From NCBI RefSeq assembly GCF_004000435.1, contig NZ_RBVZ01000001.1, forward strand, positions 620,001-684,000: a DNA stretch of 64,000 nucleotides, in the 5' to 3' direction. This document shows, in pieces, positions 6,015-32,042 of this stretch. Positions within the stretch are counted from its first letter, which is position 1. Every line of letters begins with the position of its first letter. The position numbers and the translations under genes were made by a program. The notes below the pieces were generated by a model, which saw only the letters and a list, made by a program, of their open reading frames with translations, was not told where the DNA came from and ran no database searches. Source of the stretch: Alexandriicola marinus (GTDB lineage: Bacteria > Pseudomonadota > Alphaproteobacteria > Rhodobacterales > Rhodobacteraceae).

Positions 6015-6032
6015 GACGAACAAAGGCGGCGG

Positions 6033-6054
6033 AACAAAATTCCAGAATTTTGTT
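6033..6054. repeat. perfect palindrome after nrdJ
   Basis: Ten-base arms AACAAAATTC and GAATTTTGTT are separated by CA. The element lies 19 bp after the nrdJ stop and before the main terminator. Short AT-rich intergenic palindromes of this type also occur at 26985-27030 in this window, between other genes. Confidence 0.6.
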
Positions 6055-6162
6055 TTGCCGTCACTCTTCCGGGGCGGGTGCGCTCGCCCCTGACGCGGAT
6101 CAGGCCGCAGGCAAAAAACCGGGCGGTAACTCAAATAGTGAGCCTGATCAGCGAGACTTACA

Positions 6163-6186
6163 GGGCCCCTTCGGGGGCCCTTTTTT
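6163..6186 (+). terminator. rho-independent terminator of nrdJ
   Basis: Stem GGGCCCC/GGGGCCC (6163-6169 with 6174-6180) closes a TTCG tetraloop and is followed directly by six Ts (6181-6186). This is a textbook intrinsic terminator for the plus strand. Confidence 0.93.
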
Positions 6187-6233
6187 CTGTGTCGGCGCGT
6201 TATTGTCGGGCGGCGGCTGACCCTGGACCCGCG

Positions 6234-15768: not shown

Positions 15769-17277
15769 ATGCCCATGCCAGACACTGGCGCCACCGTGCC
15801 GAACGAAATCAACGCGACGCTGTTCTTTGCCGCGGACGAACCCGAATTCGTGGCGGGTGCGATGTCCCATGCGACGGGCGGCGAGCCTGTCCTTGCAATC
15901 ACCGGATCGGATGCCTTCGCGCGGCTGTTCGGTGCCGGTCACAGCATGGACTTTGCCGAGGCCCAGCTGGATTCGGTTCCCCTGAATATCGACGATGTTC
16001 TCGACCGGCTGCGCCAGCGGCTGGCCGCAGTGCCCGACGTGGCCTGCGTCGTGATCGACATGTCCTGGACACATGCCCCCGCGACAAGCGTCGGCGGCAT
16101 CGAGGGATGGGGCGATATCGCCGAGCGGCTGTGCGCGCGGCCCGGCGTGGCGGTCGTCTCGGCGTTCGACAAGGAATTCCTGGTCGAGGATCAGCTTCAG
16201 GCCGCGATGCGGGCGACACAGCAATTCATCTCGCCCTCGGGTCTGCGGGAAAACCCGCATTGGCTGCCCAATGAAATCCGGCTTGGTTCCACGCTGGATG
16301 AGAAGCTGGGCTTCATGCTGGGGCGGATCGTGCCGGAATTCGCGGGTTCGGGCGGGCTGCGTCGCATTGATCAGATGGCCGCGCGGGGCGGGGCGCCGGA
16401 CTGGCTCGACCGCGCGCCGCTTGTTCCGGCCGAGACCAGCGATCGGCCGCCGTGGTACATCCGCTGTCTCGGGCCCCTCGAAGTCTTTGCGGGCGGGCCT
16501 GAACCGGTCGACTGGCGCCAGCCGGGCAGCGCGCCCAAGAAGACGCGAACGCTTTTCGCCTACCTTCTGAATGCCGGTGAAAAGGGTGCCCATGCCGATC
16601 AGATCTGCGAATTGCTCTGGCAGGGGGAGGAGCCCAACGCCAAGAAGCGCGCGCGCCTGCACCATACGGTCGCAATGCTAAGGCGGACGCTGGGGGGGCA
16701 GGATGCCGTGCTGCGCATCGACGAAAGCTACCGGCTCAACGTGCCGCCGGGCAGCCGGATCGACGTCGACAGTTTCGAGCAGATCTGCAGACGCGGCCTG
16801 TCCTTTGCGCGCGCCGGCAAGAACGAGGCGGCGCTGAAGCTCTATCTCGAGGGGGAACGGCAATATCGCGGCGATCTCTTCGAGAACCTGCCGCATGAAT
16901 ACCTTTCGACCGAAACCGAAGACTGGATCATCCCGCGCCGGACGTGGCTGCGCGATATGGCGGTGCGGCTGCATTATGACATGTCCAAGCTGCTCCGCCG
17001 CTACAGCCGCCTCGGCGAGGCGCTCGATCATGCGCTCAAGGCGGTGGCGCTCGATCCGCTGAACGAGGCCGCCAACACCGAAGCCATGCGGGTCTTTCAT
17101 GCGCAGGGCCGGATCGAGGCGATGCACCGGCAGTTCCGGCAATACAGCGCCGCGCTCAATGCGATCGGTGTCTCGGCGCCGGGCCCGGAGGTGACCTCGG
17201 TGTATGGCGAGATGTGCCGCTCGCTCGATCATCTGTCGCCCACGCGGCGCAAGATGCGGGATCTGAGCCTGCGATAG
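15769..17277 (+). CDS. MEDS domain-OmpR-type HTH-BTAD transcriptional regulator
   Basis: This 502-residue regulator has three parts. Residues ~15-195 resemble the MEDS (methanogen/methylotroph DcmR sensory) domain, with the typical DMSW at 97-100. Residues ~228-325 are an OmpR-type winged helix (RTLFAYLLNAGEKGAHADQI, LHHTVAMLRRTLGG). Residues ~331-490 are a bacterial transcriptional activation domain (BTAD) with TPR-like helices (EALDHALKAVALDPLNEAAN). HTH plus BTAD defines SARP-like activators, which bind direct repeats of 11-bp period. It lies between, and probably controls, the GMC/Liv genes and the P450 operon. The MEDS part may sense a small hydrophobic or C1 effector. Domain calls are by eye; MEDS is the least certain. 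Confidence 0.8.
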   Translation: MPMPDTGATVPNEINATLFFAADEPEFVAGAMSHATGGEPVLAITGSDAFARLFGAGHSMDFAEAQLDSVPLNIDDVLDRLRQRLAAVPDVACVVIDMSWTHAPATSVGGIEGWGDIAERLCARPGVAVVSAFDKEFLVEDQLQAAMRATQQFISPSGLRENPHWLPNEIRLGSTLDEKLGFMLGRIVPEFAGSGGLRRIDQMAARGGAPDWLDRAPLVPAETSDRPPWYIRCLGPLEVFAGGPEPVDWRQPGSAPKKTRTLFAYLLNAGEKGAHADQICELLWQGEEPNAKKRARLHHTVAMLRRTLGGQDAVLRIDESYRLNVPPGSRIDVDSFEQICRRGLSFARAGKNEAALKLYLEGERQYRGDLFENLPHEYLSTETEDWIIPRRTWLRDMAVRLHYDMSKLLRRYSRLGEALDHALKAVALDPLNEAANTEAMRVFHAQGRIEAMHRQFRQYSAALNAIGVSAPGPEVTSVYGEMCRSLDHLSPTRRKMRDLSLR

Positions 17278-17481: not shown

Positions 17482-18729
17482 ATGAACGCCTTGGATACCA
17501 TCCGCGGGTCGGATGCCTATGATCCGTATGATCTGAACAACCCGCATCCCGAATGGCACCGGTTCCGCGAGGAACAGCCCATCTTCTATCACGAGCCGTC
17601 GGGCTACTGGATCGTGTCGCGCTATGACGACATCAAGGCCATCTTCGACGACTGGAAGACCTTCTCGAGCGAGAACGCGCAAAAGCCCATGAGGCCGATG
17701 TGCGACGCGGCCCGGCAAGTCATGAAAGATGGCGGTTTCAGCGCCTATTCGGGTCTGACGGCGCGGGTTCCGCCCGATCATACGCGGATCCGCAAGATCG
17801 CGCAGGGCTGTTTCGGGCCTCGCCGCTTCAAGGCGATCGCCCCCCAGATCGAAGAGATCGTGGCCCGGCACCTCGACGACCTCGAAGAGGCGGGGCGCGC
17901 CGGCGGCCCGGTCGACTTCTGGCAGATCGTTGCCCATCCGGTGCCGGCCTATGTCCTGTTCACGCTGATGGGGATCCCCGACGAGGACGTGCCCCGGATC
18001 AAGAAATACGGCGAAAGCCGCTCGCGGATGACATCGTCCGACCTGACCGACGAAGAACAGGTCCCGGTGGCCCACGACATGGTTGCCTATTGGCAATACA
18101 TCCACGACCTGCTGGATATGCGGCGCGCGGAACCGGGCGACGATTTCCCCTCCGACCTGCTGCGCCTTCAGGCCGAGGGCGCCGAGATCAGCGACGAGGA
18201 AATCGCGGGCGTTCTCTATTCCACGCTGTTCGCGGGCCACGAGACCACGTCGACCTTCATGGGCAATTACGTGATCGAGGCGCTGCGCAATCGCGACGCC
18301 TGGGAGGCGATCAAGGCCGACCATTCGCTCATTCCCAACGCCATCGAAGAGATGCTGCGCTTTGCGCCCTCGGTTGTGGGCTGGCGCCGCAAGGCGCGCC
18401 ATGCGACCCAGCTGGGTGGGGTGGACCTGGCCGAAGGGGCCGAGATCCTGATGCTGACGGGCTCTGCCAATCGCGATGAGACGACTTTCCCCGAAGGCGA
18501 GCGGCTCGATATCTCGCGCGAGAATGCCCGAACCCATCTGAGCTTTGGCTACGGCATCCACTACTGCCTTGGGTTCCACCTCGCCAAGATGGAAGGGCAG
18601 GCCCTTGTGCGGCAATTGGCCGAACGGTTCCCGGACATGCGATTGGCCGAAGATTTCGTTCCCGAATACAATCGCAACATCACCTTCCGTGTTCCGAAAT
18701 CGGTCATGGTCGAATGGGAGCACGCTTGA
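17482..18729 (+). CDS. cytochrome P450
   Basis: This 415-residue soluble bacterial P450 has the I-helix oxygen-activating motif FAGHETT, the K-helix E-x-x-R in EEMLRF, and the heme loop FGYGIHYCLG with ligand Cys362. Bacterial class I P450s take electrons from a ferredoxin; a [2Fe-2S] ferredoxin is the last gene of this operon, but no ferredoxin reductase is in the window. It is expected to hydroxylate or O-dealkylate a small organic substrate. The stop overlaps the next start (TGATG), and GGGAGGACAG precedes the ATG. The substrate is unknown. Confidence 0.95.
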   Translation: MNALDTIRGSDAYDPYDLNNPHPEWHRFREEQPIFYHEPSGYWIVSRYDDIKAIFDDWKTFSSENAQKPMRPMCDAARQVMKDGGFSAYSGLTARVPPDHTRIRKIAQGCFGPRRFKAIAPQIEEIVARHLDDLEEAGRAGGPVDFWQIVAHPVPAYVLFTLMGIPDEDVPRIKKYGESRSRMTSSDLTDEEQVPVAHDMVAYWQYIHDLLDMRRAEPGDDFPSDLLRLQAEGAEISDEEIAGVLYSTLFAGHETTSTFMGNYVIEALRNRDAWEAIKADHSLIPNAIEEMLRFAPSVVGWRRKARHATQLGGVDLAEGAEILMLTGSANRDETTFPEGERLDISRENARTHLSFGYGIHYCLGFHLAKMEGQALVRQLAERFPDMRLAEDFVPEYNRNITFRVPKSVMVEWEHA

Positions 18730-19793
18730 TGAACGATCTCTTTACTCTTGATTTTTCAGAGATTGGTTCAGCGGATCATGCCCGCGTCGGCGGCAAGTGC
18801 GCCTCGCTTGGGGAGATGACGCAGGCCGGTGTCGCGGTGCCCCCGGGCTTTGCCGTGACGACGGAGGCCTTCTCCGCCATGCTCGATCATCACGGACTGC
18901 GCGACGAGATCGACCGCGCGCTCGATGGTGTGGACCCCGAGGATCTCGACGCGGTCGACCGTGCCGCGCAGGCGATCCGTATCCGCATCCGGTCGCACAA
19001 GTTGCCACCCGAGGTCGAGACCGCGATCCGCGAAGCCTATGCCGCGCTCGGCGATGATATGCCCGTCGCTGTCAGGTCGTCGGCCACCGCCGAGGATTTG
19101 CCGGATGCGAGTTTCGCGGGGCAGCAGGACACCTATCTGTGGGTGCGCGGCGCCGATGACGTGGTGACCCATGTTCGCGATTGCTGGGCGTCGCTCTATA
19201 CGACGCGCGCTGTGGCCTACCGCGAAAAGAACAACATCGCGCATGCCGGCGTTCTGATGAGCGTGGGCGTGCAAAAGATGGTCAATGCCCGCGCCGCGGG
19301 CGTCGCCATGACGCTTGACCCCGGAACCGGCGATCGCACCCGGATCGTGATCGAGGCCTCTTGGGGCCTGGGCGAAATGGTGGTTTCCGGCGTGGTCACG
19401 CCCGACAATTTCGTGGTGGAAAAGGTGCTCGAGGAAATCCTCGACCGCAAGATCGCGGACAAGCATGTGGAACTGGTGGGCGACGCCGAACTGGGGGAGG
19501 CTGTCGAACGCGAGGTCGAGGCGGCCCGCCGCACGGCCTGTTGCCTGAGTGATGCCGAGATACTGGCCGTCGCGCGCTTGGCCAAGCGTCTGGAAAAGCA
19601 GAACAAATGTCCGCAAGATGTGGAATGGGCCATCGACGCGGACCTGCCCGATGGCGAAAACCTTCTGGCGCTGCAATCGCGCCCCGAAACGATCTGGTCC
19701 CAGAAGAAGGCCGAGAAAAAGCCCGCGAGCTACATGACCGGCATGATGGGCATCGTGAATACGCTGAATAATCCGATCAGCAGCAAAGGCTGA
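18729..19793 (+). CDS. PEP-synthase-like ATP-grasp subunit (phenylphosphate synthase subunit-2-like)
   Basis: This 354-residue protein is only the N-terminal nucleotide-binding part of PEP synthase/PPDK. It shows GGKCASLGEM (ATP-binding Lys23), the VAVRSSATAEDLPDASFAGQQDTYL block, AAGVAMTLDPGTGDRT, and the domain-closing LQSRPETIW. It should use ATP to phosphorylate a His on a partner. Its ~39-kDa size, followed by a ~68-kDa His-domain subunit, resembles the two-subunit core of phenylphosphate synthase of anaerobic phenol degraders; rifampin phosphotransferase has the same parts in one chain. It starts inside the P450 stop codon and is followed after 30 bp by its partner. Confidence 0.88.
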   Translation: MNDLFTLDFSEIGSADHARVGGKCASLGEMTQAGVAVPPGFAVTTEAFSAMLDHHGLRDEIDRALDGVDPEDLDAVDRAAQAIRIRIRSHKLPPEVETAIREAYAALGDDMPVAVRSSATAEDLPDASFAGQQDTYLWVRGADDVVTHVRDCWASLYTTRAVAYREKNNIAHAGVLMSVGVQKMVNARAAGVAMTLDPGTGDRTRIVIEASWGLGEMVVSGVVTPDNFVVEKVLEEILDRKIADKHVELVGDAELGEAVEREVEAARRTACCLSDAEILAVARLAKRLEKQNKCPQDVEWAIDADLPDGENLLALQSRPETIWSQKKAEKKPASYMTGMMGIVNTLNNPISSKG

Positions 19794-19823: not shown

Positions 19824-21641
19824 ATGGACGCTCAGAAACCAATGTTCCCAAGCGCCTTCGAGGTGGAGACACCGGCCGGTGCCGAGGGGTGGAAGGATCT
19901 CTACCCCTATTACACGCATTTTCAGCCCGCGCGGCGCGAAGAGGATGATGCGACCTTCTGGTTCTGCAATTCGCAGCACTGGCCGACGCCGTTCCGTCCC
20001 TTCGATACGATCATGCTGGATTTCGCGATCAAGGGGCTGGGGCAATACAACACCCGCCATCTGGTGGTCCCGCCCGCGAATGGCGTCGATTACCGTATCC
20101 TGAACGGCTATGTCTATTTCTCGCCCGTGGCCGTCGCGCCCGAGCTGATCGAGGCGCGCGTGCCGCAATTCATGGAACGTGCGGGCCATTATTTCCAGAA
20201 CTGGGGCGAGCTTTACGCCAACTGGAAGGAAAAGGTTCTCGCCATGATCGGCGAGTTGGACGCGATCGAATTCACCGCGCTTCCGGATGTGGAGGACATC
20301 GCGGTCGTGACCGGCGGCAAGGGGCTCGATTCCACCAACCAGCTGTTCGATCAATACGACAAGGCGATCGAGCTGTGCTACAAGATCTGGCAGTATCATT
20401 TCGAGTTTCTGAACCTCGGCTACGCGGCCTATCTGGATTTCTTCGGCTTCGTGAAGGAGCAGTTTCCGACGATCCCTGATCAGGCCATCGCCAAGATGGT
20501 TCAGGGCGTCGATTCCGAGCTGTTCCGCCCCGATGACGAGATCAAGAAGCTTGCCAAGCTTGCCGTCGAACTGGGCTGTGCGGATGCCCTGAAGACGGGA
20601 ACGGTCGACGAGGCGCTGGCCGCGGTGGCCAAGGCCCCGGGCGGGGACAAATGGCTTGCCCAATGGGAAGAGGCCAAGGACCCGTGGTTCAACTTCACCT
20701 CCGGCAACGGCTTCTATTCGACGGACAAGTACTGGATCGATCACCTCGATATCCCGATGGCCTATCTGCGCGACTACATCGAGCGGGTCGAGGACGGTGA
20801 CGAGATCATGCGCCCGACCGCCAAGCTTCTGGCCGAGCGTGACCGCATCACCGCCGAATACCGCGAGATGATGGACGCCGACGCGCAGGAGGTCTTTGAC
20901 GGCAAGCTGGGTCTGGCCCGCGTCGTGTTTCCTTATGTCGAGGATCACAACTTCTACATCGAACATTGGGCGCTGGGCGTGTTCTGGCGCAAGATGCGGC
21001 AGCTGTCCAAGCTCCTGTCCGATCAGGGCTTTTGGGAGAATGACGAGGACATGTTCTTCCTCAACCGCAACGAGATCCGTGACGTGTTGTGGGATTACTC
21101 CTCGTCCTGGGCCATCGGCGTGCGCAAGCGTGGCACCGAACTTTGGCCTGCCGAGATCGAACGCCGGCGCGGCATTCACAAGGCGCTGTCCTCGGTCCGG
21201 CCTCTTCCCGCGCTCAACAACCCGCCCGAGGTCATCACCGAGCCCTTTACCATCATGCTCTGGGGGATCACCTCGGATGCGGTGGAACGCTGGGTCGCCG
21301 CCGACGACACGTCGGGCGAGCTGAAGGGCATGGCCGCCGCCCCCGGCGAGGTCGAGGGCGTGGCGCGGGTTCTGTCGAGCCCAGATCAATTGTCCGAATT
21401 GCAGAAGGGCGAGATCCTTGTCACGCCCGTCACGGCGCCGTCATGGGCGCCGGTCTTCGGCAAGATCAGCGCCGCGGTCACCGATATCGGCGGAATGATG
21501 AGCCACGCGGCCATCGTCTGCCGGGAATACGGCCTGCCCGCCGTGACGGGAACCGGCAATGCCAGTTCGCGGATCGAGACCGGGATGCGTCTGCGCGTCA
21601 ACGGCAACACCGGCACCGTGACGGTGCTCGACGAGGCGTAA
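19824..21641 (+). CDS. PEP-utilising phosphohistidine-domain subunit (phenylphosphate synthase subunit-1-like)
   Basis: This 605-residue protein has a ~480-residue N-terminal region rich in Trp, Tyr and Phe, presumably binding the acceptor substrate, and a C-terminal swivelling phosphohistidine domain (about 510-605) with GGMMSHAAIVCREYGLPAV, where His561 is the expected phosphocarrier. Together with the preceding ATP-grasp subunit it would move a phosphoryl group from ATP to an alcohol or phenol, as phenylphosphate synthase and rifampin phosphotransferase do. The TIM-barrel pyruvate/PEP-binding domain of true PEP synthase is absent, which argues against PEP formation. The acceptor is unknown; a hydroxylated P450 product is the natural guess. 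Confidence 0.88.
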   Translation: MDAQKPMFPSAFEVETPAGAEGWKDLYPYYTHFQPARREEDDATFWFCNSQHWPTPFRPFDTIMLDFAIKGLGQYNTRHLVVPPANGVDYRILNGYVYFSPVAVAPELIEARVPQFMERAGHYFQNWGELYANWKEKVLAMIGELDAIEFTALPDVEDIAVVTGGKGLDSTNQLFDQYDKAIELCYKIWQYHFEFLNLGYAAYLDFFGFVKEQFPTIPDQAIAKMVQGVDSELFRPDDEIKKLAKLAVELGCADALKTGTVDEALAAVAKAPGGDKWLAQWEEAKDPWFNFTSGNGFYSTDKYWIDHLDIPMAYLRDYIERVEDGDEIMRPTAKLLAERDRITAEYREMMDADAQEVFDGKLGLARVVFPYVEDHNFYIEHWALGVFWRKMRQLSKLLSDQGFWENDEDMFFLNRNEIRDVLWDYSSSWAIGVRKRGTELWPAEIERRRGIHKALSSVRPLPALNNPPEVITEPFTIMLWGITSDAVERWVAADDTSGELKGMAAAPGEVEGVARVLSSPDQLSELQKGEILVTPVTAPSWAPVFGKISAAVTDIGGMMSHAAIVCREYGLPAVTGTGNASSRIETGMRLRVNGNTGTVTVLDEA

Positions 21642-21704: not shown

Positions 21705-22307
21705 ATGACGAAGATCGCCGATACGGCGCGCTATGACCCTGTCTGGCGCGCGGCCGAACCCTACATGCGCGCGCGCCGCAACGACGTGCACATCCCGCTC
21801 AGCTTTGCATGGTGCCAGAGGCTTCTTGATCTGCACCCCGAGGCGGACCGCGATGTCTGCTCTCTTGCGATCCTGCTGCACGATATCGGCTGGTATTCCA
21901 TCGACATGGACCGGATCATCGAAGAGGGCTTTCGCTCCGACAACCCGCTGCAATCGGACGTGCGCTACCTGCACGAGGCCGAGGGCGTGCGTCTGGGCAC
22001 CGAGGTTCTGCGCGCGACCGGCTGGAGCGAGGAGATCATCGCGCAGGTGTGCGAGATCATCGACGGCCATGACACCCGCCCGGATCCGCACCATCTGAAT
22101 GACCGGATCGTGCGCGATGCCGACAAGCTCTGGCGGTTCGAGGTGACAGGCATCGCGGTGGCCTGTGACTGGTTCGCGGTGACGCCGCATGGCTATGCCG
22201 ACATGCTCGAGGCGCAGAAGGATATCCTCGAGACAGCGCCGGGCCGCGAGATGGCCGCGCGCGAACTGGCCGCGACGCGGGCCAAGCTGATGCTTCACGT
22301 GTTGTAG
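21705..22307 (+). CDS. HD-domain protein 1 (predicted dimetal hydrolase or oxygenase)
   Basis: This 200-residue protein keeps all ligands of a dinuclear HD site: His29, His59-Asp60 (LLHDIGW), His90, His122 (IIDGHDTR) and Asp138 (VRDADKLWR). Extra histidines beyond the minimal HD set are typical of two-metal members, such as nucleotide/phosphomonoester hydrolases and the HD oxygenases PhnZ and MIOX. In an operon with a phosphotransferase, a role on a phosphorylated intermediate is plausible. ATG 21705 was preferred over the TTG at 21687. A paralogue is encoded three genes on (23759). Exact chemistry cannot be read. Confidence 0.82.
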   Translation: MTKIADTARYDPVWRAAEPYMRARRNDVHIPLSFAWCQRLLDLHPEADRDVCSLAILLHDIGWYSIDMDRIIEEGFRSDNPLQSDVRYLHEAEGVRLGTEVLRATGWSEEIIAQVCEIIDGHDTRPDPHHLNDRIVRDADKLWRFEVTGIAVACDWFAVTPHGYADMLEAQKDILETAPGREMAARELAATRAKLMLHVL

Positions 22308-22322
22308 GGAAGGACCCGGGCC

Positions 22323-23762
22323 ATGGAGATGTTCATCGACGGCACGTGGCAGGCCTCTGACGGCGGCGCGACGTTCGAGGTGTCGAACCCCGCAACGGGC
22401 GCGGTGGTCGATCACGTCCCCGATGCCACGGCCACGGATGCCGATCGCGCCATCGCGGCGGCCGCACGTGCCTTCGACACATGGCGACACCGCCCGGTGA
22501 CGGAGCGGGTGGCGATCCTCAAGGCCTGCGCCGGGGCCATGCGCGACCGCGCGGACGAAATCGGCGCGCTTCTGCACGCAGAACTGGGCCGGCCGCTTGC
22601 GGGCTGCATCGGCGAGATATCCCGCTCTGCCGATCTGATGGACATTTACGCCGAAGAGGGCCTTCGCCTTCAGGCCACGATGGGCCTTGGCGGGGCCACG
22701 GGCGAAAAGACCATCGTGACCCGCGACCCCGTGGGCGTTGTCGTGGCGATCACCCCGTTCAACTATCCCGTCACGCTTCTTCTGTTCAAGCTCGGCGCGG
22801 CCCTCGCGGCGGGCTGCACGATGGTTGCCAAACCCTCCGAAGACACGCCGCTGTCGACACTCAGACTGGCCGCGATCTTCGCCGAGGCGGGATTGCCGCC
22901 GGGCTGTTTCAACGTGGTCACGGGGCAGGGCAGGGCTCTGGGCGAGGCGCTCGTCGAACATCCCGTCCCGCGCAAGATCGCCTTCACCGGCAGCACCGCC
23001 GTGGGCAAGGCCATCGCGGCGGCGGCGGCCGGCACGATGAAGCGTCTGACACTCGAACTGGGCGGTCAGTCTCCGGCCATCGTCTGCGCCGACGCCGATC
23101 TCGACAAAGCCACCAGTGCCATCGCCCGCCACGGCTTCGCCAATTCCGGGCAATTCTGCTACCGGGTGAACCGGGTCTATGTCGACCGTGCCATCCATGA
23201 CGCGTTCGTCGCGCAACTGACCGACAAGGTCGCGACCCTTACGCTTGCGCCCGCAGGGGGCGACGGGGATCTCGGCCCGCTCGTCAATTCCAAGATATAC
23301 GCCAACAGCGCCGCGCAGGTGGCCGATGCCCGGGACAAGGGCGCGCGGATTGTTCTGGGGGGCGACCGACAGACCGGTCCGGGCTTCGACGGCGGCCATT
23401 ACCTGCCGCCCACGATCATCGCCGATGCCACGCCCGACATGCTGATCCTGAGAGAGGAAACCTTTGGCCCGGTTCTGGGGATTTGCGCGGTCGACAGCCC
23501 CGCCGAGGCCCTCCGCCTTGCCAATGACAGCCGGTATGGGCTTGCGGGTTTCGTCTTCACACGCGATCTGGCCCGCGGTCTTGCCCTGTGCGAAGGGATG
23601 GAGGCCGGGTCGGTCTGGCTCAACGACATCCAGCGATCGTCGCATTTCGTGCCCTTCGGCGGCATGAAAGAAAGCGGTCTGGGTCGGGAAAAGGGCCGCT
23701 ACGGCGTTGAGGCTTATCTTGAATACAAGACCCTTTACCTGAGCTACGAGGTGCCGGAATGA
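22323..23762 (+). CDS. aldehyde dehydrogenase (NAD(P)+)
   Basis: This 479-residue member of the ALDH superfamily has the Rossmann-binding TPFNYPV and AKPSEDTP segments, catalytic Glu245 in LELGGQS, catalytic Cys279 in NSGQFC and the C-terminal FGGMKESGLGREKGRYGVE stretch. It should oxidise an aldehyde to the acid, as in succinate-semialdehyde or benzaldehyde/vanillin dehydrogenases. It follows HD protein 1 by 15 bp and overlaps HD protein 2 by 4 nt (ATGA). In the pathway it would follow alcohol oxidation by the GMC enzyme or the SDR. Confidence 0.93.
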   Translation: MEMFIDGTWQASDGGATFEVSNPATGAVVDHVPDATATDADRAIAAAARAFDTWRHRPVTERVAILKACAGAMRDRADEIGALLHAELGRPLAGCIGEISRSADLMDIYAEEGLRLQATMGLGGATGEKTIVTRDPVGVVVAITPFNYPVTLLLFKLGAALAAGCTMVAKPSEDTPLSTLRLAAIFAEAGLPPGCFNVVTGQGRALGEALVEHPVPRKIAFTGSTAVGKAIAAAAAGTMKRLTLELGGQSPAIVCADADLDKATSAIARHGFANSGQFCYRVNRVYVDRAIHDAFVAQLTDKVATLTLAPAGGDGDLGPLVNSKIYANSAAQVADARDKGARIVLGGDRQTGPGFDGGHYLPPTIIADATPDMLILREETFGPVLGICAVDSPAEALRLANDSRYGLAGFVFTRDLARGLALCEGMEAGSVWLNDIQRSSHFVPFGGMKESGLGREKGRYGVEAYLEYKTLYLSYEVPE

Positions 23763-24430
23763 CCGCAGAGACGCTGTTTCTTCCCCGCGATCTTCCACTT
23801 TGGCGGGATGCGCGGCCCTATCTGGATGTGCGCAACAACGACGAACACACGATCATCGCCTATGCGCTGGCCAGACGGCTGGTCGCGCTGACGCCGGGGG
23901 CCGAGGAAAGCGTCGTCCTGCCCGCGATCCTGCTGCATGACGTGGGGTGGAAAAAGGTCCCCGAAGACCTCTTGCTTCATGCGGTCGGGCGCAAGCCGAC
24001 CCGGCCCGACCTTGTCCGCGACCACGAGCTTTACGGGGTCGAGATCGCCCGGGAGATACTGGAACGCCACGCCCCCGAAGGGGTCGATATCGATGCCGTC
24101 TGCGAGATCATCGACGGCCACGACACGGTGAAGGAAGCCAAGTCGCTCAACGATGCGGTGGTGAAGGATGCCGACAAGGGCTGGCGCTCCACGCCGCATG
24201 GCATGCGCACCATCGGTGGCTGGTATGGCGTGGGCCCCGACGAGGTGCTGATCATGCTTGAGGAGAAATCCAACCCGCTGATGCTGACACCTGCGGGCCG
24301 CGCGCTGGCCGAAGGGCAGACAACGGCCGTCCGGACCGAGATGATGATCGAGGCCTGTCTCGGCCACGGGCCGGAATTCACCACGGCCCTGCCGCCGGGA
24401 AAGGGAGCCGACAAATGGCAACGCAACTGA
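23759..24430 (+). CDS. HD-domain protein 2 (paralogue of HD protein 1)
   Basis: This 223-residue protein carries His30, His60-Asp61 (LLHDVGWKK), His89, His121 (IIDGHDTV) and Asp137 (VKDADKGWR), the same six-ligand pattern as HD protein 1, and the shared block IIDGHDT...LND...DADK-x-WR shows the two are paralogues. It is longer at the C terminus. Two different HD proteins in one operon suggest two steps or two related substrates, or a heteromer. The gene overlaps the ALDH by 4 nt and the SDR by 16 nt. Confidence 0.82.
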   Translation: MTAETLFLPRDLPLWRDARPYLDVRNNDEHTIIAYALARRLVALTPGAEESVVLPAILLHDVGWKKVPEDLLLHAVGRKPTRPDLVRDHELYGVEIAREILERHAPEGVDIDAVCEIIDGHDTVKEAKSLNDAVVKDADKGWRSTPHGMRTIGGWYGVGPDEVLIMLEEKSNPLMLTPAGRALAEGQTTAVRTEMMIEACLGHGPEFTTALPPGKGADKWQRN

Positions 24431-25170
24431 ACCTCGAGGGCAAGCGCGTCATCGTCACAGGCGCCGCGGGCGGCCTTGGCCGCGCCTTTGCCGAGGCCTT
24501 TGCCGGGGCAGGGGCACGGGTTCTTGCCGCCGATATCGACGAGGCCGGCGCAGCGGAAACAGCCACCCGGATCGGGTCTGCCTGCTATGCCGCGCCGCTC
24601 GACGTGACGGACAGCTCCAGCTGTGCCGCGCTGGCCTCTGTCGCGCATGACGCGATGGGCGGCGTCGATGTTCTGGTCAACAACGCGGCTTATTTCGGCG
24701 GGCTGACCCGCGCGCCTTTCATGGAGATCGAAGAGGCCGACTGGGACCGCGCGATGAACGTCAATGCCAAGGGCGTCTGGCAGGTCACCCGGGCCATCGC
24801 ACCGATGATGCAGCAGGCCGGCGCCGGATCGATCATCAACATCGCCTCGGCCACCGTCTTTTCGGGCTCGCCCCAATGGATGCATTACGTGGCCTCCAAG
24901 GGTGCGGTCATCGCCATGACCCGCGTCATGGCAAAGGAACTGGGCGGCGACGGGATCCGGGCCAATGTCATCGCGCCGGGCTTCACCCTGACCGAGGCCA
25001 GCTTTGGTCATATGGAAGACGCCCGGAATTACGGTGTCGATCGCGCGGCCCTGAAGCGCAACGCCGAGGCCGGAGATATCGTGGGCGGGGTGCTCTACCT
25101 CGCCTCCGATCTTTCGGGCTTCATGACGGGCCAGACGCTGGTTATTGACGGCGGCAAGCAATTCATCTGA
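24415..25170 (+). CDS. short-chain dehydrogenase/reductase
   Basis: This 251-residue classical SDR has cofactor motif TGAAGGLG (residues 15-22), NNAA at 89-92, catalytic Ser145, Tyr158 and Lys162 (YVASK) and the C-terminal GQTLVIDGGKQF. Asp40 at the end of the second beta strand (LAADID) indicates NAD(H) preference. It probably oxidises a secondary alcohol or reduces a ketone formed in the P450 pathway. It overlaps HD protein 2 by 16 nt, and ferredoxin follows after 9 bp. Confidence 0.92.
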   Translation: MATQLNLEGKRVIVTGAAGGLGRAFAEAFAGAGARVLAADIDEAGAAETATRIGSACYAAPLDVTDSSSCAALASVAHDAMGGVDVLVNNAAYFGGLTRAPFMEIEEADWDRAMNVNAKGVWQVTRAIAPMMQQAGAGSIINIASATVFSGSPQWMHYVASKGAVIAMTRVMAKELGGDGIRANVIAPGFTLTEASFGHMEDARNYGVDRAALKRNAEAGDIVGGVLYLASDLSGFMTGQTLVIDGGKQFI

Positions 25171-25179
25171 GGAGACGAG

Positions 25180-25500
25180 ATGGTCAAGGTCACCTTTATC
25201 GAAGCCGACGGCACTCGCCGCGAGGTCGACGCGCCGGAAGGCGAGCCGCTGATGTATGCCGCGCGCGATGCCGGCGTGGCGGGCATCGTCGCCGAATGCG
25301 GCGGCTCGGCCATGTGCGCAACATGCCATTGCTACGTGATCGAGGCTGCGCCCGGCACCTTGCCCGAGCCGCGGGCCGACGAGGCCGACACGGTCGAGTT
25401 CATGGCCAACGAGCCGCGGGAAAACAGCCGGCTGACCTGTCAGATCACGGTGACGCCGGCGCTCGACGGGGCCGTCTTCGAAGTTGCGACGGGGCGATAG
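25180..25500 (+). CDS. [2Fe-2S] ferredoxin, adrenodoxin/putidaredoxin type
   Basis: This 106-residue ferredoxin has cluster ligands Cys40, Cys46, Cys49 (CGGSAMCATC) and Cys87 (LTCQI), the C-x5-C-x2-C-x(n)-C pattern of adrenodoxin and putidaredoxin. It is very likely the electron donor to the operon's P450. The GAGGAGACGAG ribosome site precedes the ATG. It is the last gene of the eight-gene operon; no NADH-ferredoxin reductase is adjacent, so one encoded elsewhere must be shared. Confidence 0.94.
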   Translation: MVKVTFIEADGTRREVDAPEGEPLMYAARDAGVAGIVAECGGSAMCATCHCYVIEAAPGTLPEPRADEADTVEFMANEPRENSRLTCQITVTPALDGAVFEVATGR

Positions 25501-27044: not shown

Positions 27045-27842
27045 TCATCGCGCCAGAATGCCGCCGTCGATGACCAGCATGTTGCCGGTCATGTAATCCG
27101 TGGCAGACGAGGCAAGGTAGACCACGGTGCCGCGTATCTCTGCCGCTTCCGCCAGTCGGCCCATGGGCGTGTAATCCGCCATTTGCTGTGCGTGCTCCGG
27201 CGAGCGGGGGCGGGTTTTGGTTCGGAAAAAGCCGGGGATGATCGCGTTTACCTGGATGCCGAGCGAGGCGTATTCCAACGCAAGTTCGCGCGTCAGGCTC
27301 ACCACCGCGCCCTTGGCCGCGGCATAGGCCGGGCGGGGGAAGATGCCCGCCGCCGCCACGATCCCGAACATTGAGCCGATCATGATCACCTTGCCGCTGC
27401 CCTGCGAGACCATCTGCCCCAGCGCGGGGCGCACGGTGTTGTAGACACCATCGAGGTTGACCGCCGTGACCCGGTCCCAGTCCTCGCGGGGCATCTCGTG
27501 CAGGCGCCCGGGCTGGGCCTCAGATATCCCGGCATTCGGGATGACGATGTCGAGCGTGCCGAAACGCGCCACGGTTTGCGCCACCGCCGCCTCCATGGCC
27601 GCGGCGTCGGTCACGTCGGCGGTGAGGGGCAGCACCTCGGCTCCGGAAATCGTCGCGGCCGTCTCGGCCAGCGTCGCCTCATCGCGATCGAGCAGCGCCA
27701 GATGCGCACCGGCCTCGGCCAACGCGGCCGCCATCTCGGCGCCAAGGCCCTGACCAGCGCCGGTGATCAGGGCCGTCTTGCCTGTCAGGTCGAACATCCG
27801 GGGAAGGGGCAGGGCGCCGGCCCCGTGGGTATCACCGGTCAT
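27045..27842 (-). CDS. short-chain dehydrogenase/reductase of the biotin-carboxylase operon
   Basis: This ~265-residue classical SDR has cofactor motif TGAGQGLG, NAG in PNAGISE, catalytic Tyr and Lys in AYAAAKGAVVSL, and GNMLVIDGG near the end. Asp after beta-2 (LALLDRD) suggests NAD(H). The ATG at 27842 overlaps the HAD stop (ATGA), which supports this start; a later ATG at 27797 would give the more usual short N terminus. It is the last gene of the BCCP-BC-CT-HAD-SDR operon. Confidence 0.88.
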   Translation of the reverse strand: MTGDTHGAGALPLPRMFDLTGKTALITGAGQGLGAEMAAALAEAGAHLALLDRDEATLAETAATISGAEVLPLTADVTDAAAMEAAVAQTVARFGTLDIVIPNAGISEAQPGRLHEMPREDWDRVTAVNLDGVYNTVRPALGQMVSQGSGKVIMIGSMFGIVAAAGIFPRPAYAAAKGAVVSLTRELALEYASLGIQVNAIIPGFFRTKTRPRSPEHAQQMADYTPMGRLAEAAEIRGTVVYLASSATDYMTGNMLVIDGGILAR

Positions 27843-28672
27843 GGAGCGGGGAACCATGGCTGCGCGTCGATGCCGGCCAGAGTGTCGAGCAGGAGATGCG
27901 CCCGATGCGCGGGCTCGACCGCCTCGAAGGCGGCCGCGTCATAGGCGCCCGTCGTCACGCCGATCGTCAGCGCGCCCGCCGCCCGGCCCATCCGGATCTC
28001 CAGCTTCGGATCGTCGCCGATCACGGCGCTGGCCTCGGCGGGCACGCCGGTCAGGCCGCAGGCGATCTCCATTCCGGCGACAGAGGGTTTGCCCATCACC
28101 TCGGGCGCGATCCCCGTGCAATGCTCGATCGCGGCGGATACCGCGCCCGGTATCCCCACGATCCGCCCCTTCGAGGAGGCGACGAAGGGCGCGACGGAGC
28201 TGGTGAAGGGCTTGGCCCCGTCCCAGATCGCAGCGACGATCGCCTCGAGCGCGTCTGAGGACAGCGCCCGCGTATAGCCCACCATCACTGCACTGACGGG
28301 ACCCGCGGTCTTGACCGGCTCGACCATCTCGATCCCGGCCTGTGCGAGCGGGGTCCGGATCCCGTCATCGGCCAGCACCATGACCCTTTCGTGGCCGCGC
28401 GCCTTCAGAACGCCTGCGGCCACGACCGCCGGCGTCAGGAGATGGCCCGGATCGATCACGAGGCCCGCGTCGGCAAGCCTCGGGTAGTAATGATCGGGCG
28501 GAAAGAAGGTGCCGTTGGTATAGGCCACCACGGGCACCCCGCGCGCGCGGGCGAGCTCAAGGGCCTCGACCGCGCCGGGAAGCGGCTCGTAGGTGCCGGT
28601 TTCCTTGTCCATCATGGCCAGCGTGCCGTCGATATCGAAGACAAGCGCGCGGATCGGGTGGGGATGGGTCAT
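27839..28672 (-). CDS. HAD-superfamily phosphatase, NagD-like
   Basis: This 277-residue HAD hydrolase has nucleophile motif DIDGTL (Asp13/Asp15 area), motif II YTNGT, the C2-type cap of the NagD/subclass IIA group and the final GDDPKLEIRMGRAAG motif. It should cleave a phosphomonoester; NagD-like enzymes act on nucleotides, phosphoglycolate or 4-nitrophenyl phosphate. It overlaps both neighbours by 4 nt (ATGA), so it is co-translated with the carboxyltransferase and SDR. That a phosphatase sits within a biotin-carboxylase operon is unusual. Confidence 0.87.
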   Translation of the reverse strand: MTHPHPIRALVFDIDGTLAMMDKETGTYEPLPGAVEALELARARGVPVVAYTNGTFFPPDHYYPRLADAGLVIDPGHLLTPAVVAAGVLKARGHERVMVLADDGIRTPLAQAGIEMVEPVKTAGPVSAVMVGYTRALSSDALEAIVAAIWDGAKPFTSSVAPFVASSKGRIVGIPGAVSAAIEHCTGIAPEVMGKPSVAGMEIACGLTGVPAEASAVIGDDPKLEIRMGRAAGALTIGVTTGAYDAAAFEAVEPAHRAHLLLDTLAGIDAQPWFPAP

Positions 28673-30138
28673 GGGCGTCCTCCGGACAGCGAGAGTTTGA
28701 ACCCCGGTTTTTCGACCCGCACCGATCCCAGCCCCTTGCGGGAGGTCAGTTCCCGGATCAGGTCGAGCGCGGGGCGGGTGGCCGGATCATAGCTCCGCCG
28801 GGCGGGGCCCGCGGCCTTCATCGCATCGACCTGATCGCCGGGCATGACGGCGCGCAGCAGGAACTCCTCGTCCGGGCAGTCCCTGCCGATCCGCGACCTC
28901 AGCTCATCGAGCGAGGCCATCCGCGGCTCATCCTCCAGCTCGCGGGCGCGTTTCGACCCCCTGATCCGATCCTCGACCGCACCGTCCATCGGCATGGCGG
29001 GCGTGCCGAACCGGCCCAGCACATAGCGCGTCACCTCATCGGGCACCGTCTGGTAGCGGTCCTCGGAGGTGACGTTCAGCATCGCCTGCGTTGCCACCAG
29101 CTGGCTGAACGGCGTGACCATGATCGGATAGCCGAATTCGGCCCGGACGCGCGCGACCTCCTCCAGCACCTGCGGCAGAAGGTGTTCGCGGCCGGTTTCC
29201 TTCAGCTGGCGGATCATGGTGCCCATGACCCCGCCGGGGATCTGGTGGCGGAAATAGCCGCGGTCATAATCTCCGGGCCCGCGCGCAGAGAGCCCCTCGG
29301 CCCGGGCGAGCGCGGTCATGTAGCCATCCATCTCGGCCACTGCGTCATCGTCGACGTCGACCCGATGGCCCATGTCGCGCAGGTTGGCGGTGGTCTGGCT
29401 CATGGCGGGCTGGCCCGTGCCATTCGCCGCCGACGAGGCCGAAGTGTGCAGGCAATCGACGCCCGCCTCCGCCGCCTCGAGGTAGGAAAAGGCCGCAAGC
29501 CCGATCGTGGTGTGGGAATGGAATTCGAACGGGACGCGGCCCGCCGCCTGCCTTAGTGCGGGAAAGAGTCTGGCGGCCCGTTCGGGTGAAACAAGCCCGC
29601 CGGGATCCTTGACATAGATCTTGTCGAACCGGCCGGAGGCGCACAGCTCCCGGGTCTTGTCGCACCAATGCGCGTCGTCATGAAGCGGCGACAGCGTGAA
29701 GGTCAGCGCCGCCACGATCTGAGAGCCGCCCGCACGGCGCGTGACATCGGCCATGTTAAGCATCGCCTGGGTGTCGTTCATCGGGTCCATCACCGCGAAC
29801 CGCTCGATCCCGTTCTTCACCAGAAGACCGAAGGCGAATTCCATCAGCTCTTCGCTGGCGATTTCCCACGAGATGAAGCGCATGCCCGTGGTCAGGAACG
29901 ACAGGGGCGTGTTGGGCGTGGCTTCCTTGAAGAGACGGAGCCTCTCCCACGGGTCTTCCTGCTTGAACCGCACAGCCACGGCCATGTGGGTGGAGGTGGT
30001 GAAATCGATCGCCTCGAAGCCGATCCTGTCCATAACCGGCGCGATCTGGAGCATCATGCCCGTGTCGAGCCCGGTCGCCCCCCAGTTCGACTGGTTGCCG
30101 TCGCGCAGGGTCGTGTCGATCAGCGAAATATCGGTCAT
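28669..30138 (-). CDS. biotin-dependent carboxyltransferase subunit, pyruvate carboxylase/oxaloacetate decarboxylase type
   Basis: This 489-residue DRE-TIM-type protein begins with IDTTLRDGNQSNWG (the metal-binding DTTLRD motif), has a YVKDPGGL segment, where the family has the carboxylated or catalytic Lys before D-x-x-G, and FHSHTTIGLA as the metal-binding H-x-H. Its C-terminal ~180 residues match the PYC/OadA conserved domain. It lacks a fused biotinyl domain; that domain is a separate gene here. The acceptor could be pyruvate or another 2-oxo acid. There is no membrane beta subunit, so it is not a sodium pump. Confidence 0.87.
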   Translation of the reverse strand: MTDISLIDTTLRDGNQSNWGATGLDTGMMLQIAPVMDRIGFEAIDFTTSTHMAVAVRFKQEDPWERLRLFKEATPNTPLSFLTTGMRFISWEIASEELMEFAFGLLVKNGIERFAVMDPMNDTQAMLNMADVTRRAGGSQIVAALTFTLSPLHDDAHWCDKTRELCASGRFDKIYVKDPGGLVSPERAARLFPALRQAAGRVPFEFHSHTTIGLAAFSYLEAAEAGVDCLHTSASSAANGTGQPAMSQTTANLRDMGHRVDVDDDAVAEMDGYMTALARAEGLSARGPGDYDRGYFRHQIPGGVMGTMIRQLKETGREHLLPQVLEEVARVRAEFGYPIMVTPFSQLVATQAMLNVTSEDRYQTVPDEVTRYVLGRFGTPAMPMDGAVEDRIRGSKRARELEDEPRMASLDELRSRIGRDCPDEEFLLRAVMPGDQVDAMKAAGPARRSYDPATRPALDLIRELTSRKGLGSVRVEKPGFKLSLSGGRP

Positions 30139-31493
30139 GGCGTCGTGTCCATCCGTGTCAGAAGGTCTGGCAGATAGGTCGTGTCGACCCCGCCCGCGAC
30201 AAAAGCCGCATCCTCCATGATCGCGGCATGAAGCGGGGCGTTGGTCCTGACGCCCTCAAGTCGGATCACGCGCAGGGCGTCGCGCATCCGGGCGATGGCC
30301 TCGGCCCGGGTCGCGCCATGGGTGATCAGCTTGGCGATCATGGAATCGTAATGCGGCGGGATCATCGCGCCCGGCTGCATGTGGGTATCGACCCGCAGGC
30401 CGGGGAGGGAGGGGAACCAGGCGTCGCTCACCCGCCCCGGCGAGGGCATGAAGTTGTTGCCGATATCCTCCGCGTTCAGACGGCACTCGATGGCATGTCC
30501 GACAAGCCCGATATCGTCTTGCGAAAGCGCCAGCGGCTGCCCTTCGGCAATCGCGATCTGGAGGGCGATCAGATCGAGGCCGGTCACCTCCTCGGTCACC
30601 GGGTGTTCGACCTGAACCCGGGCATTCATCTCGAGGAAATAGAACTCTTCCCGCGCCACATCGACGAGGAATTCCACCGTTCCGAGGGAGCGGTAGCCTA
30701 TATGGCGCGCGAAGGCGCAGCCGGCCTCGAGGATGGCTGCGCGCAGCGTGTCGGGCAGATGCGGGGCAGGCGCTTCTTCGACCACTTTCTGATAGCGCCG
30801 CTGGATCGAGCAATCCCGTTCGCCGGCGTGCAGCACCTGCATCCCGTCGGACAGGATCTGCACCTCGATATGCCGCCCGGAGGTCACGAGGCGTTCGATA
30901 TAGACGCGGGCATCGCCGAAGGCCGCCGCCGCCTCTGACATCGCGAGGTCAAGCTGCGAGGCCAGTTCACCCGCGTGATCGACGCGCTTCATCCCGCGCC
31001 CGCCGCCGCCCGCCACCGCCTTGATCAGCAAGGGAAAGCCCAGCTCGTCGGCAAGGCGCATCGCCTCTTCGGTGGTCGCGACCGTGGCGCCCGGAACAAG
31101 CGGCACGCCCGCATCGCGGGCATGGCCGCGTGCGGTAAGCTTGTCGCCCACGGCCGCAAGGTTGTCGGGGCTGGGGCCGATGAAGATCAGCCCCACGTCG
31201 GCGCAGGCCTGCGCAAGATCGCGGTTTTCCGACAGGAAGCCATAGCCCGGATGGATCGCGTCACAGCCCATGCCCTTGGCCGCCTCGATCACCGCGCCGA
31301 CCGACAGATAGCTCTGGCTTGCCGGGGCGGGGCCAAGACAGACCGCGCGGTCCGCCAGCCGCGCGCCAAGGCTGTCGCGGTCGGCCTCCGACACGCCCAG
31401 AACCGTCTCGATCCCGATCGCGCGGGCCGTGCGGATCACGCGAACGGCGATCTCGCCGCGATTTGCGATGAATATCCGGGCGATCCGGGGCAT
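30135..31493 (-). CDS. biotin carboxylase subunit (AccC-like)
   Basis: This 452-residue ATP-grasp enzyme carboxylates biotin using ATP and bicarbonate. Motifs include IANRGEIAVRVIRTA, HPGYGFLSEN, the glycine-rich GGGGRGMKRV, ERDCSIQRRYQKVVEEAPAP and FLEMNARVQVEHPVTEE. Length equals AccC (~450). It is one base after the BCCP gene and overlaps the carboxyltransferase by 4 nt. Because it sits with a PYC-type carboxyltransferase instead of acetyl-CoA carboxylase genes, it probably serves this dedicated complex rather than fatty acid synthesis. Confidence 0.92.
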   Translation of the reverse strand: MPRIARIFIANRGEIAVRVIRTARAIGIETVLGVSEADRDSLGARLADRAVCLGPAPASQSYLSVGAVIEAAKGMGCDAIHPGYGFLSENRDLAQACADVGLIFIGPSPDNLAAVGDKLTARGHARDAGVPLVPGATVATTEEAMRLADELGFPLLIKAVAGGGGRGMKRVDHAGELASQLDLAMSEAAAAFGDARVYIERLVTSGRHIEVQILSDGMQVLHAGERDCSIQRRYQKVVEEAPAPHLPDTLRAAILEAGCAFARHIGYRSLGTVEFLVDVAREEFYFLEMNARVQVEHPVTEEVTGLDLIALQIAIAEGQPLALSQDDIGLVGHAIECRLNAEDIGNNFMPSPGRVSDAWFPSLPGLRVDTHMQPGAMIPPHYDSMIAKLITHGATRAEAIARMRDALRVIRLEGVRTNAPLHAAIMEDAAFVAGGVDTTYLPDLLTRMDTTP

Positions 31494-31494
31494 C

Positions 31495-31941
31495 TCAATC
31501 CGGCTTCACACGGATCAGCGTCTGGCCATGTTCGACCATCTCGCCATTCGGGGCCACGATCTCGGTCACGAGGCCGGTCACACCGGCGGTGACCTGGTTC
31601 ATCAGCTTCATCACCTCGATGATGCCGATCACGCTGTCGGGGCCGACCCTGTCGCCCACCGTGACAAAGGGCGGGGCGCCCGGTTTTGGGGCATGGTAGA
31701 AGATACCCAGCAAGGGCGCCGGCACCTCCAATCCTTCGCCGGTCAGTTCTGGTGGTGTCGCGGGGGCAGGTGCCGGCCTTGGGGTGGATGCGGGCTCTGC
31801 CGATGGTGCGAGGGGGGCAGGGGCGCCTGCCTTGCGCAGTTCCAGCTTGAGATCGCCCATCTCGAGGGTCAGTTCCTCGAAATCGGAGCCGTCGACAAGC
31901 CTGAGGATGTAGTCGATGTCTTCTCGCGTCAGCCCGCTCAT
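31495..31941 (-). CDS. biotin carboxyl carrier protein (AccB-like)
   Basis: This 148-residue protein has an AccB-like N-terminal region, a Pro/Ala-rich linker at about 40-68 and a C-terminal biotinyl domain with EVMKLMN (biotinylated Lys112 expected) in place of the canonical EAMKMMN. ATG at 31941 is used; an upstream in-frame start would add 17 residues. It is the first gene of the five-gene operon, and an IclR-type palindrome lies 83 bp upstream. Confidence 0.9.
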   Translation of the reverse strand: MSGLTREDIDYILRLVDGSDFEELTLEMGDLKLELRKAGAPAPLAPSAEPASTPRPAPAPATPPELTGEGLEVPAPLLGIFYHAPKPGAPPFVTVGDRVGPDSVIGIIEVMKLMNQVTAGVTGLVTEIVAPNGEMVEHGQTLIRVKPD

Positions 31942-32023
31942 CGCACGCGCCTCCCGGTTTGCGGCATCAGGTGGAGCAAGGCTAGGCAGCACGCGCCCGG
32001 CGGTAAACGGGTGGTCGCCGCTG

Positions 32024-32040
32024 GTTTCACCAGGTGAAAC
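32024..32040. promoter_or_regulatory. perfect palindrome, candidate IclR operator
   Basis: GTTTCACCAGGTGAAAC has perfect 8-bp arms around one base. It lies between the iclR-family stop (2 bp away) and the BCCP start. IclR-family regulators commonly bind palindromes of the GTTTCA-TGAAAC kind, so the adjacent regulator is the obvious candidate. Confidence 0.62.
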
Positions 32041-32042
32041 AT

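Follow-up and report, generated by a model that had tools for sequence, protein, structure and literature searches.

A cre-type operon of Alexandriicola marinus with two paralogous HD-domain proteins, both predicted to act as aryl-phosphate phosphatases

The 64,000-nucleotide stretch of Alexandriicola marinus DNA analysed here (contig NZ_RBVZ01000001.1, positions 620,001 to 684,000; hereafter the window, in whose numbering coordinates are given) carries eight head-to-tail genes on its plus strand, between 17482 and 25500. They encode, in order, a cytochrome P450, a PPDK_N-type ATP-binding protein, a phosphoenolpyruvate (PEP)-utilizing protein, an HD-domain protein (HD1), an aldehyde dehydrogenase (ALDH), a second HD-domain protein (HD2), a short-chain dehydrogenase (SDR) and a 2Fe-2S ferredoxin; Table 1 gives them with the Cre proteins they resemble. 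Genes overlap at P450/CreI (16 bases), ALDH/HD2 (4) and HD2/SDR (16), and the remaining gaps are short (CreI–CreH 30, CreH–HD1 63, HD1–ALDH 15 and SDR–ferredoxin 9 bases). Because of these overlaps and short gaps the eight genes are likely to form one operon. It is preceded by a gene for a BTAD-type regulator, which adjoins the P450 gene in all five loci of the same family that hold the operon. The longest open reading frame of HD1 begins further upstream, at TTG, 21687. No NCBIfam model reached its cut-off on either HD protein, and the two are 37% identical to each other.

Table 1. Coordinates of the operon and of neighbouring features in the window (aa, amino acids; pLDDT, predicted local distance difference test; percentages are sequence identities)
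Feature	Coordinates	Strand	Details
BTAD/SARP-like regulator	15769..17277	+	Pfam BTAD; occupies the place of the actinobacterial IclR
Cytochrome P450 (CreJ-like)	17482..18729	+	top PDB matches 5gwe/5xjn, E ~1e-125; 48% to the 5gwe chain
Dikinase ATP-binding component (CreI-like)	18714..19793	+	Pfam PPDK_N 383 bits; 53-55% to Rhodococcus CreI-like proteins
Dikinase substrate and swivel component (CreH-like)	19824..21641	+	NCBIfam PRK08296.1-2, 1006 bits, cut-off 650
HD1	21705..22307	+	200 aa from ATG; Pfam HD 34.1 bits, cut-off 22; model pLDDT 92.9
Aldehyde dehydrogenase (CreC-like)	22323..23762	+	Pfam Aldedh 525 bits; 39-40% to the ALDH of two Rhodococcus cre loci
HD2	23759..24430	+	223 aa; Pfam HD 37.2 bits, cut-off 22; model pLDDT 91.9
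Short-chain dehydrogenase, in CreG-like place	24415..25170	+	Pfam adh_short_C2; 54-55% to the SDR of Rhodococcus cre loci
2Fe-2S ferredoxin (CreF-like)	25180..25500	+	Pfam Fer2; 42-44% to Rhodococcus cre-locus ferredoxins
hpe-type carboxylase operon	27045..32849	-	IclR, biotin carboxyl carrier protein (BCCP), biotin carboxylase, carboxyltransferase, HAD phosphatase, SDR; NCBIfam; no dikinase of its own

The PEP-utilizing protein (PRK08296 family) and the ATP-binding protein resemble the phenol-phosphorylating split dikinases CreHI, HpeHI and PpsAB (passages in PMC12167813). The CreH-like component is 60% identical to a Rhodococcus CreH-like protein and carries its swivel histidine within GGMMSHAA. 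The best two PDB matches of the P450 are entries that we take to be CreJ of Corynebacterium glutamicum (the PDB search itself labels them 'Cytochrome P450'), and the third-best match lies far behind (E 1.9e-67). In C. glutamicum, a table in PMC7764795 gives creC as a benzaldehyde dehydrogenase, creD as a phosphohydrolase, creE and creF as two subunits of the P450 system, creG as a 4-hydroxybenzyl alcohol dehydrogenase, creH and creI as the subunits of 4-methylbenzyl phosphate synthase and creJ as a P450 subunit; part of PMC9549646 describes CreE as a ferredoxin reductase and CreF as a ferredoxin, and counts CreD among the components of the alkylphenol oxidation system. The window has in common with this 4-cresol pathway the split dikinase, CreJ-like P450, ferredoxin, dehydrogenase, ALDH and phosphohydrolase; it differs in its second HD paralogue, in a BTAD instead of an IclR regulator, in an operon without a flavin adenine dinucleotide (FAD)-dependent reductase, and in the carboxylase operon next door. 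The joint presence of CreJ-like P450, CreI, CreH, SDR, ferredoxin, HD protein and ALDH points to a cre-type pathway of alkylphenol degradation. A 4-hydroxybenzoate hydroxylase, which scored above its cut-off in all seven genomes searched, fits 4-hydroxybenzoate as the end product, but one of the seven (G380) has it without having the operon.

The place of HD1 in such pathways was examined in 80 actinobacterial cre loci, the best 80 of 196 relatives from a genome-contig scan with the P450 alignment. HD1 is present in 76 of them, and the other four (L029, L038, L057 and L091) end at a contig edge; every locus that is not cut before the place of HD1 therefore has it (76/76). The closest of the 80 (L024, Corynebacterium sp. 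J010B-136; P450 88% identical to the 5gwe chain) has the order P450–CreI–CreH–SDR–ferredoxin–FAD reductase–HD1–ALDH, which is the C. glutamicum cre list in reverse, and HD1 takes the creD slot. A few loci, for example L048 and L079, have HD1 and ALDH the other way round. The window departs from this order, with HD1 placed between CreH and ALDH and sharing the creD slot only on its ALDH side. In a tree of 61 chosen HD sequences (35 HD1, 26 HD2; rooted at the midpoint), all 35 HD1 rows, including the HD proteins of actinobacterial cre loci, are separated from the HD2 rows by a branch supported at 100/100. By position and descent HD1 is very probably the orthologue of CreD.

Both HD proteins retain a complete set of candidate metal ligands: H29, H59-D60, H90, H122 and D140 in HD1, and H30, H60-D61, H89, H121 and D139 in HD2. 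These residues are invariant in 85 of 85 HD1-type sequences and in 51 HD2-type sequences, save for one row of the latter that is gapped at H59, D60 and H90 (HD1 numbering). Given this invariance in both types, the ligand set is not a chance occurrence. An earlier reading of the letters alone (the sequence-only reading) had claimed that the two proteins keep these ligands and flank the ALDH gene, with a phosphotransferase upstream, and all of this is borne out, the phosphotransferase being the two dikinase components. Five residues ahead of the first histidine an arginine (R24 in HD1) is found in 136 of 136 sequences; the motif pattern used to collect them demanded R, K, H or Q at that position, and no row was lost for want of it. 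In the sections of a 2020 review of the HD superfamily that bear on this (PMC8177086), an arginine before the first histidine is described as strict in HD phosphatases, typically three residues ahead.

According to the same parts of that review, most HD phosphatases, YfbR and YpgQ among them, bind one metal through H..HD..D; the dinuclear YqeK, a diiron diadenosine tetraphosphate (Ap4A) hydrolase, uses H..HD..H..H..D (H21, H50, D51, H83, H109, D127). HD1 and HD2 carry the YqeK motif. Ligand spacing is 30/30/32/18 in HD1, 30/28/32/18 in HD2 and 29/32/26/18 in YqeK (the last computed from residues given in PMC8177086). The likeness to YqeK extends to the helical HD fold and the arginine before the first histidine; gene context differs, as does the substrate, presumably an aryl phosphate and not Ap4A. 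The seven PDB sequences that our HD profile matched do not include YqeK. The motif of HD1 and HD2 thus fits a dinuclear phosphatase of the YqeK kind, and both proteins are predicted to bind two metals. The HD-GYP family, with which the sequence-only reading proposed a comparison, is a poor match: its motif, defined in PMC8177086 as H..HD..H..HH..D, is not found, since H122 is followed by aspartate and not histidine in 136/136 sequences. The closest folds to the HD1 model are 2pq7 (Z 17.3, root-mean-square deviation 3.1, 163 residues aligned) and YpgQ (Z 16.1, 3.6, 169), and the same two come closest to the HD2 model (2pq7: Z 16.7, 3.4, 167; YpgQ: Z 16.1, 4.2, 173). 2pq7 is also the sole match below E 0.01 when the HD profile is compared with PDB sequences (E 0.0034), and its aligned stretch keeps both extra histidines and the last aspartate; PDB sequence searches with HD1 or HD2 singly gave chance matches only. 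PhnZ, MIOX and YfbR are not among the fold matches listed for either protein, which excludes nothing.

HD2, an old paralogue of HD1, does not fall inside the HD1/CreD group but forms a group of its own, each of the two taking one side of the 100/100 branch. Within both groups the actinobacterial rows form one set and the alphaproteobacterial rows another, with the HD1 of G380 outside both. Since both kinds of bacteria recur within each group, the pair did not arise by local duplication, and a recent duplication inside this operon is rejected. A search of the window's genome with HD1 returned only HD1 and HD2 at E <= 0.001. The order HD1–ALDH–HD2 is conserved in five of five same-family loci that have the operon, as well as in genome G623, and the retention of HD2 inside the operon in these five loci argues for a real role. 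Ferredoxin is seen in four of the five (not in L019) and an FAD reductase in three (L019–L021).

Taken together, we consider it probable, with good confidence, that this is a cre-type operon in which both HD proteins are phosphatases and HD1 is CreD. The split dikinase would add phosphate to the phenolic hydroxyl of a 4-alkylphenol, the P450 and ferredoxin would oxidize the alkyl side-chain of the resulting aryl phosphate, and the SDR and then the ALDH would take the alcohol and the aldehyde on toward the acid. HD1 would strip the phosphate from the oxidized aryl phosphates at a two-metal centre formed by H29, H59, D60, H90, H122 and D140, assisted by the invariant R24. HD2 is probably a second phosphatase with the same mechanism, most likely for an oxidation state or side-chain on which HD1 performs poorly, and the two would then stand as exit gates beside the ALDH. 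This division of labour is offered tentatively, as somewhat less likely than not. The suggestion of the sequence-only reading that the pair acts on phosphorylated intermediates gains support from the predicted pathway and from the creD slot of HD1.

Several observations weigh against this interpretation. No solved structure is close to HD1 or HD2: in a Foldseek run with HD1 alone the best match, 2pq7, had E 0.0018, above the threshold of 0.001, and the nearest biochemically studied fold is that of YpgQ, which parts of PMC8177086 describe as mononuclear and acting on nucleoside triphosphates. The link between HD1 and CreD consists of position and homology of relatives, C. glutamicum lying outside the 80 loci; a literature search on the C. 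glutamicum locus tags found no paper settling the family of CreD. The CreE-like FAD ferredoxin reductase is absent from the window's operon, its nearest homologue (43%) lying on another contig (C24). HD1–ALDH also occurs in G380, the sixth same-family genome with HD1, which lacks CreH, and in G623 next to a very divergent dikinase with no P450 match within its 19-kb stretch; the substrates of HD1 may therefore be wider. Lastly, HD2 is dispensable and accessory, since a linked HD2 accompanies 44 of the 80 cre loci (both HD proteins in 43; HD2 mostly just upstream of the regulator) and HD2 is not found in many genomes that have HD1 alone at the locus. Such HD1-only loci number 33 of 80, and the genomes of 31 of them were searched for HD2 (L081 and L088 were left out): 18 gave no match, 12 hold an HD2-type protein away from the searched locus (54–61% to the Rhodococcus ruber HD2), one of these being Arthrobacter sp. 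C2, with HD2 at a second cre locus (L045), and R. opacus has a 37-residue HD2 fragment at a contig edge. HD2 as a strict requirement of the pathway is rejected by the 18 genomes without a match.

The comings and goings of HD2 admit a different view of this protein, namely that it cleans house: a promiscuous dikinase would make dead-end aryl phosphates, and HD2 would turn these back into free phenols instead of serving as a step of the pathway. On the CreH tree, which has long branches (L125, L105), the presence of HD2 changes 17 times against a mean of 21 for shuffled labels (7 and 4 of 500 shuffles as low), a count that may be too high because the label 'none' covers cut loci (L029, L038, L081), loci without a genome-wide search (L017, L088) and L039, whose genome has HD2 elsewhere. 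The idea that HD2 is bound to one dikinase lineage is rejected by the same count. HD2 lies away from a cre locus in 11 of the 31 HD1-only genomes, and the substrates of the related HpeHI include several phenols besides acetosyringone, a compound that does not support growth of its host (part of PMC12167813). Against house-cleaning stands the position of HD2 inside the operon, between ALDH and SDR, in 5/5 same-family loci, and its overlap with both neighbours in the window; we regard this explanation as rather unlikely, though one to be reckoned with.

Two further explanations concern both proteins. The sequence-only reading raised oxygenative cleavage. HD1 and HD2 would then be diiron oxygenases of the PhnZ or MIOX kind and would break C–C or C–P bonds in a phosphorylated intermediate. 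YqeK and the HD oxygenases PhnZ, TmpB and MIOX do have the six-residue ligand motif in common (sections of PMC8177086), but the YxxE loop that precedes the first histidine in PhnZ and TmpB was found within the preceding 20 residues in 0/85 HD1-type and 0/51 HD2-type sequences. MIOX itself lacks that loop according to the same sections, so that its absence alone leaves room for a MIOX-like enzyme; the creD slot of HD1 does speak against one. The Phn-HD model TIGR03276 at E <= 1 matched two other places in the window's genome, neither of them HD1 or HD2 (matches below cut-off occur at this threshold in 13 of 14 control genomes), and a Pfam scan of the two proteins gave no MIOX match at E <= 0.01, the presence of a MIOX model in the library being unchecked. 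With the arginine present in every sequence, the YqeK-like motif and a P450 already at hand for oxygenation, we reject the oxygenase proposal as extremely improbable. The proteins could instead be nucleotide phosphatases of the YpgQ or YfbR kind that are in the operon by chance, as their nearest folds, 2pq7 and YpgQ, might suggest; yet the one-metal H..HD..D arrangement of YfbR and YpgQ (passages in PMC8177086) leaves no place for the two extra invariant histidines, H90 and H122, and HD1 is present in all the uncut cre loci. The family is also narrowly spread. Apart from the window's genome, six genomes gave long relatives in searches with HD1, and all six belong to the same family (G034 among 60 relatives; G197, G202, G207, G243 and G380 among 389 sampled genomes of the order, where two further matches were weak, E ~1e-4). 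The HD profile at E <= 1e-10 matched 2/398 sampled genomes of the phylum and 1/385 of the class, the window's genome counted each time and at most eight first-look candidates scored per genome. Because the family occurs in so few of the sampled genomes, HD1 and HD2 are not housekeeping proteins. The placement in a housekeeping nucleotidase clade that the sequence-only reading named as its refutation was thus not found, and the ligand set and narrow spread lead us to reject a housekeeping nucleotidase. A chance nucleotidase we judge very unlikely.

The carboxylase operon on the minus strand bears on how the predicted aryl-phosphate phosphatases HD1 and HD2 might be used. In the Hpe pathway the carboxylase accepts ketones only when they are phosphorylated, and removal of the phosphate falls to the NagD-like HpeD (part of PMC9618137). 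The window resembles this Hpe/Acv hydroxyphenylethanone pathway (HpeHI, HpeCBA, HpeD) in having a homologous split dikinase and a carboxylase plus HAD phosphatase in the same layout; unlike it, the carboxylase operon has no dikinase of its own, and the window's CreH is 60% identical to the Rhodococcus cre type and 46% to the Rhizobium hpe type. On a Rhizobium plasmid the same carboxylase and HAD phosphatase stand behind their own split dikinase (biotin carboxylase 62%, carboxyltransferase 63% and HAD 41% identical to those of the window). A search of the window's genome with its CreH gave one full-length match. A carboxyltransferase at 72–75% identity occurs in G034 (~57 kb from CreH) and G243 (~7 kb from CreH), and none at this level in G197, G202, G207 or G380. 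Because the window's genome (G000), G034 and G243 form one branch of the CreH tree, this co-occurrence may be a single evolutionary event, not three.

This arrangement suggests that one kinase may serve both the cre and the carboxylase branch. Methyl side-chains might then go through P450 and ALDH to a benzoate, and ethyl side-chains through P450 and SDR to a phosphorylated acetophenone for the neighbouring carboxylase, the phosphate being kept as a handle until HD1, HD2 or the HAD phosphatase recognizes the right side-chain and releases the product. We hold this two-branch scheme to be doubtful. If true, it would be an aerobic 4-ethylphenol route joining cre and hpe, with HD1 and HD2 as gates that read the side-chain. 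A literature search that did not extend to most subscription journals, and which took in parts of PMC9618137 and PMC13101465, found no paper joining cre and hpe in one organism or naming UPF0261 (see below) a kinase. In Arthrobacter sp. C2 (L039), CreH- and CreI-like genes (51% and 41%) lie with a carboxylase and a HAD phosphatase upstream of one cre locus. A plasmid of Rhodococcus oxybenzonivorans (L136, 1020–13175) encodes a PEP-utilizing protein, an AMP-binding protein, a PPDK-like protein, a carboxylase, a thiolase and a tyrosine-phosphatase-like protein; the last may be one more phosphatase fold in a phosphorylate–carboxylate cluster.

Some of the related clusters contain a UPF0261 (Tm-1-like ATP-binding) protein. 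It is encoded directly before BCCP in five of five plasmid records that have an hpe-type carboxylase and HAD phosphatase and no split dikinase in the stretch seen (L104 4936–6168; L106 5883–7130; L131, which is pBAR1 of Sphingomonas bisphenolicum, 3972–5204; L132 and L133 ~5989–7176); L132 and L133 are from one species, and L104 and L131 share one UPF0261 accession. The two clusters with a dikinase (L105, L134) have no UPF0261 gene in that position, and in a looser relative (L135) UPF0261, dikinase and HAD are all unannotated. Possibly UPF0261 is a kinase of unrelated type that acts on hydroxyphenylethanones. The protein is also encoded at both HD1 loci that lack a CreJ-like P450 match in the 19–20 kb seen (L125 8433–16873; L023 6797–13089): G623 (L125) has a divergent dikinase (CreH 23%, CreI 40%), SDR, UPF0261, HD1, ALDH and HD2, and in G380 (L023) HD1–ALDH is divergent from TRAP–UPF0261–aminotransferase, with no CreH in the genome. 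On the other side of the window's operon, a GMC oxidoreductase gene (13926–15545, minus strand) adjoins the BTAD regulator. L018 and L022, which come from the two relatives that share the carboxylase, have homologues of 65–73% identity in the corresponding position; the stretches of L019–L021 include little sequence on this side. The enzyme may oxidize an alcohol of the pathway.

What is new here is the two-phosphatase form of Rhodobacteraceae-type operons and the neighbouring hpe-type carboxylase, which has a HAD phosphatase and no dikinase of its own. HD1 appears to belong to a known kind of enzyme, CreD; HD2 and the coupling to a carboxylase would set this operon apart from the known cre form. 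The words cresol, aryl and CreD do not occur in the main text of the 2020 HD superfamily review (PMC8177086). The finding places what had been two HD proteins beside an ALDH gene in a named pathway, and suggests a role on aryl phosphates, not nucleotides, for HD-domain phosphatases with a dinuclear motif. It raises the question of how such a pathway spares its first product from hydrolysis, and whether the two paralogues solve this by reading the side-chain. Phenols of the cresol and lignin types are common both as pollutants and as feedstocks, and with the adjoining carboxylase a combined cre/hpe route becomes testable.

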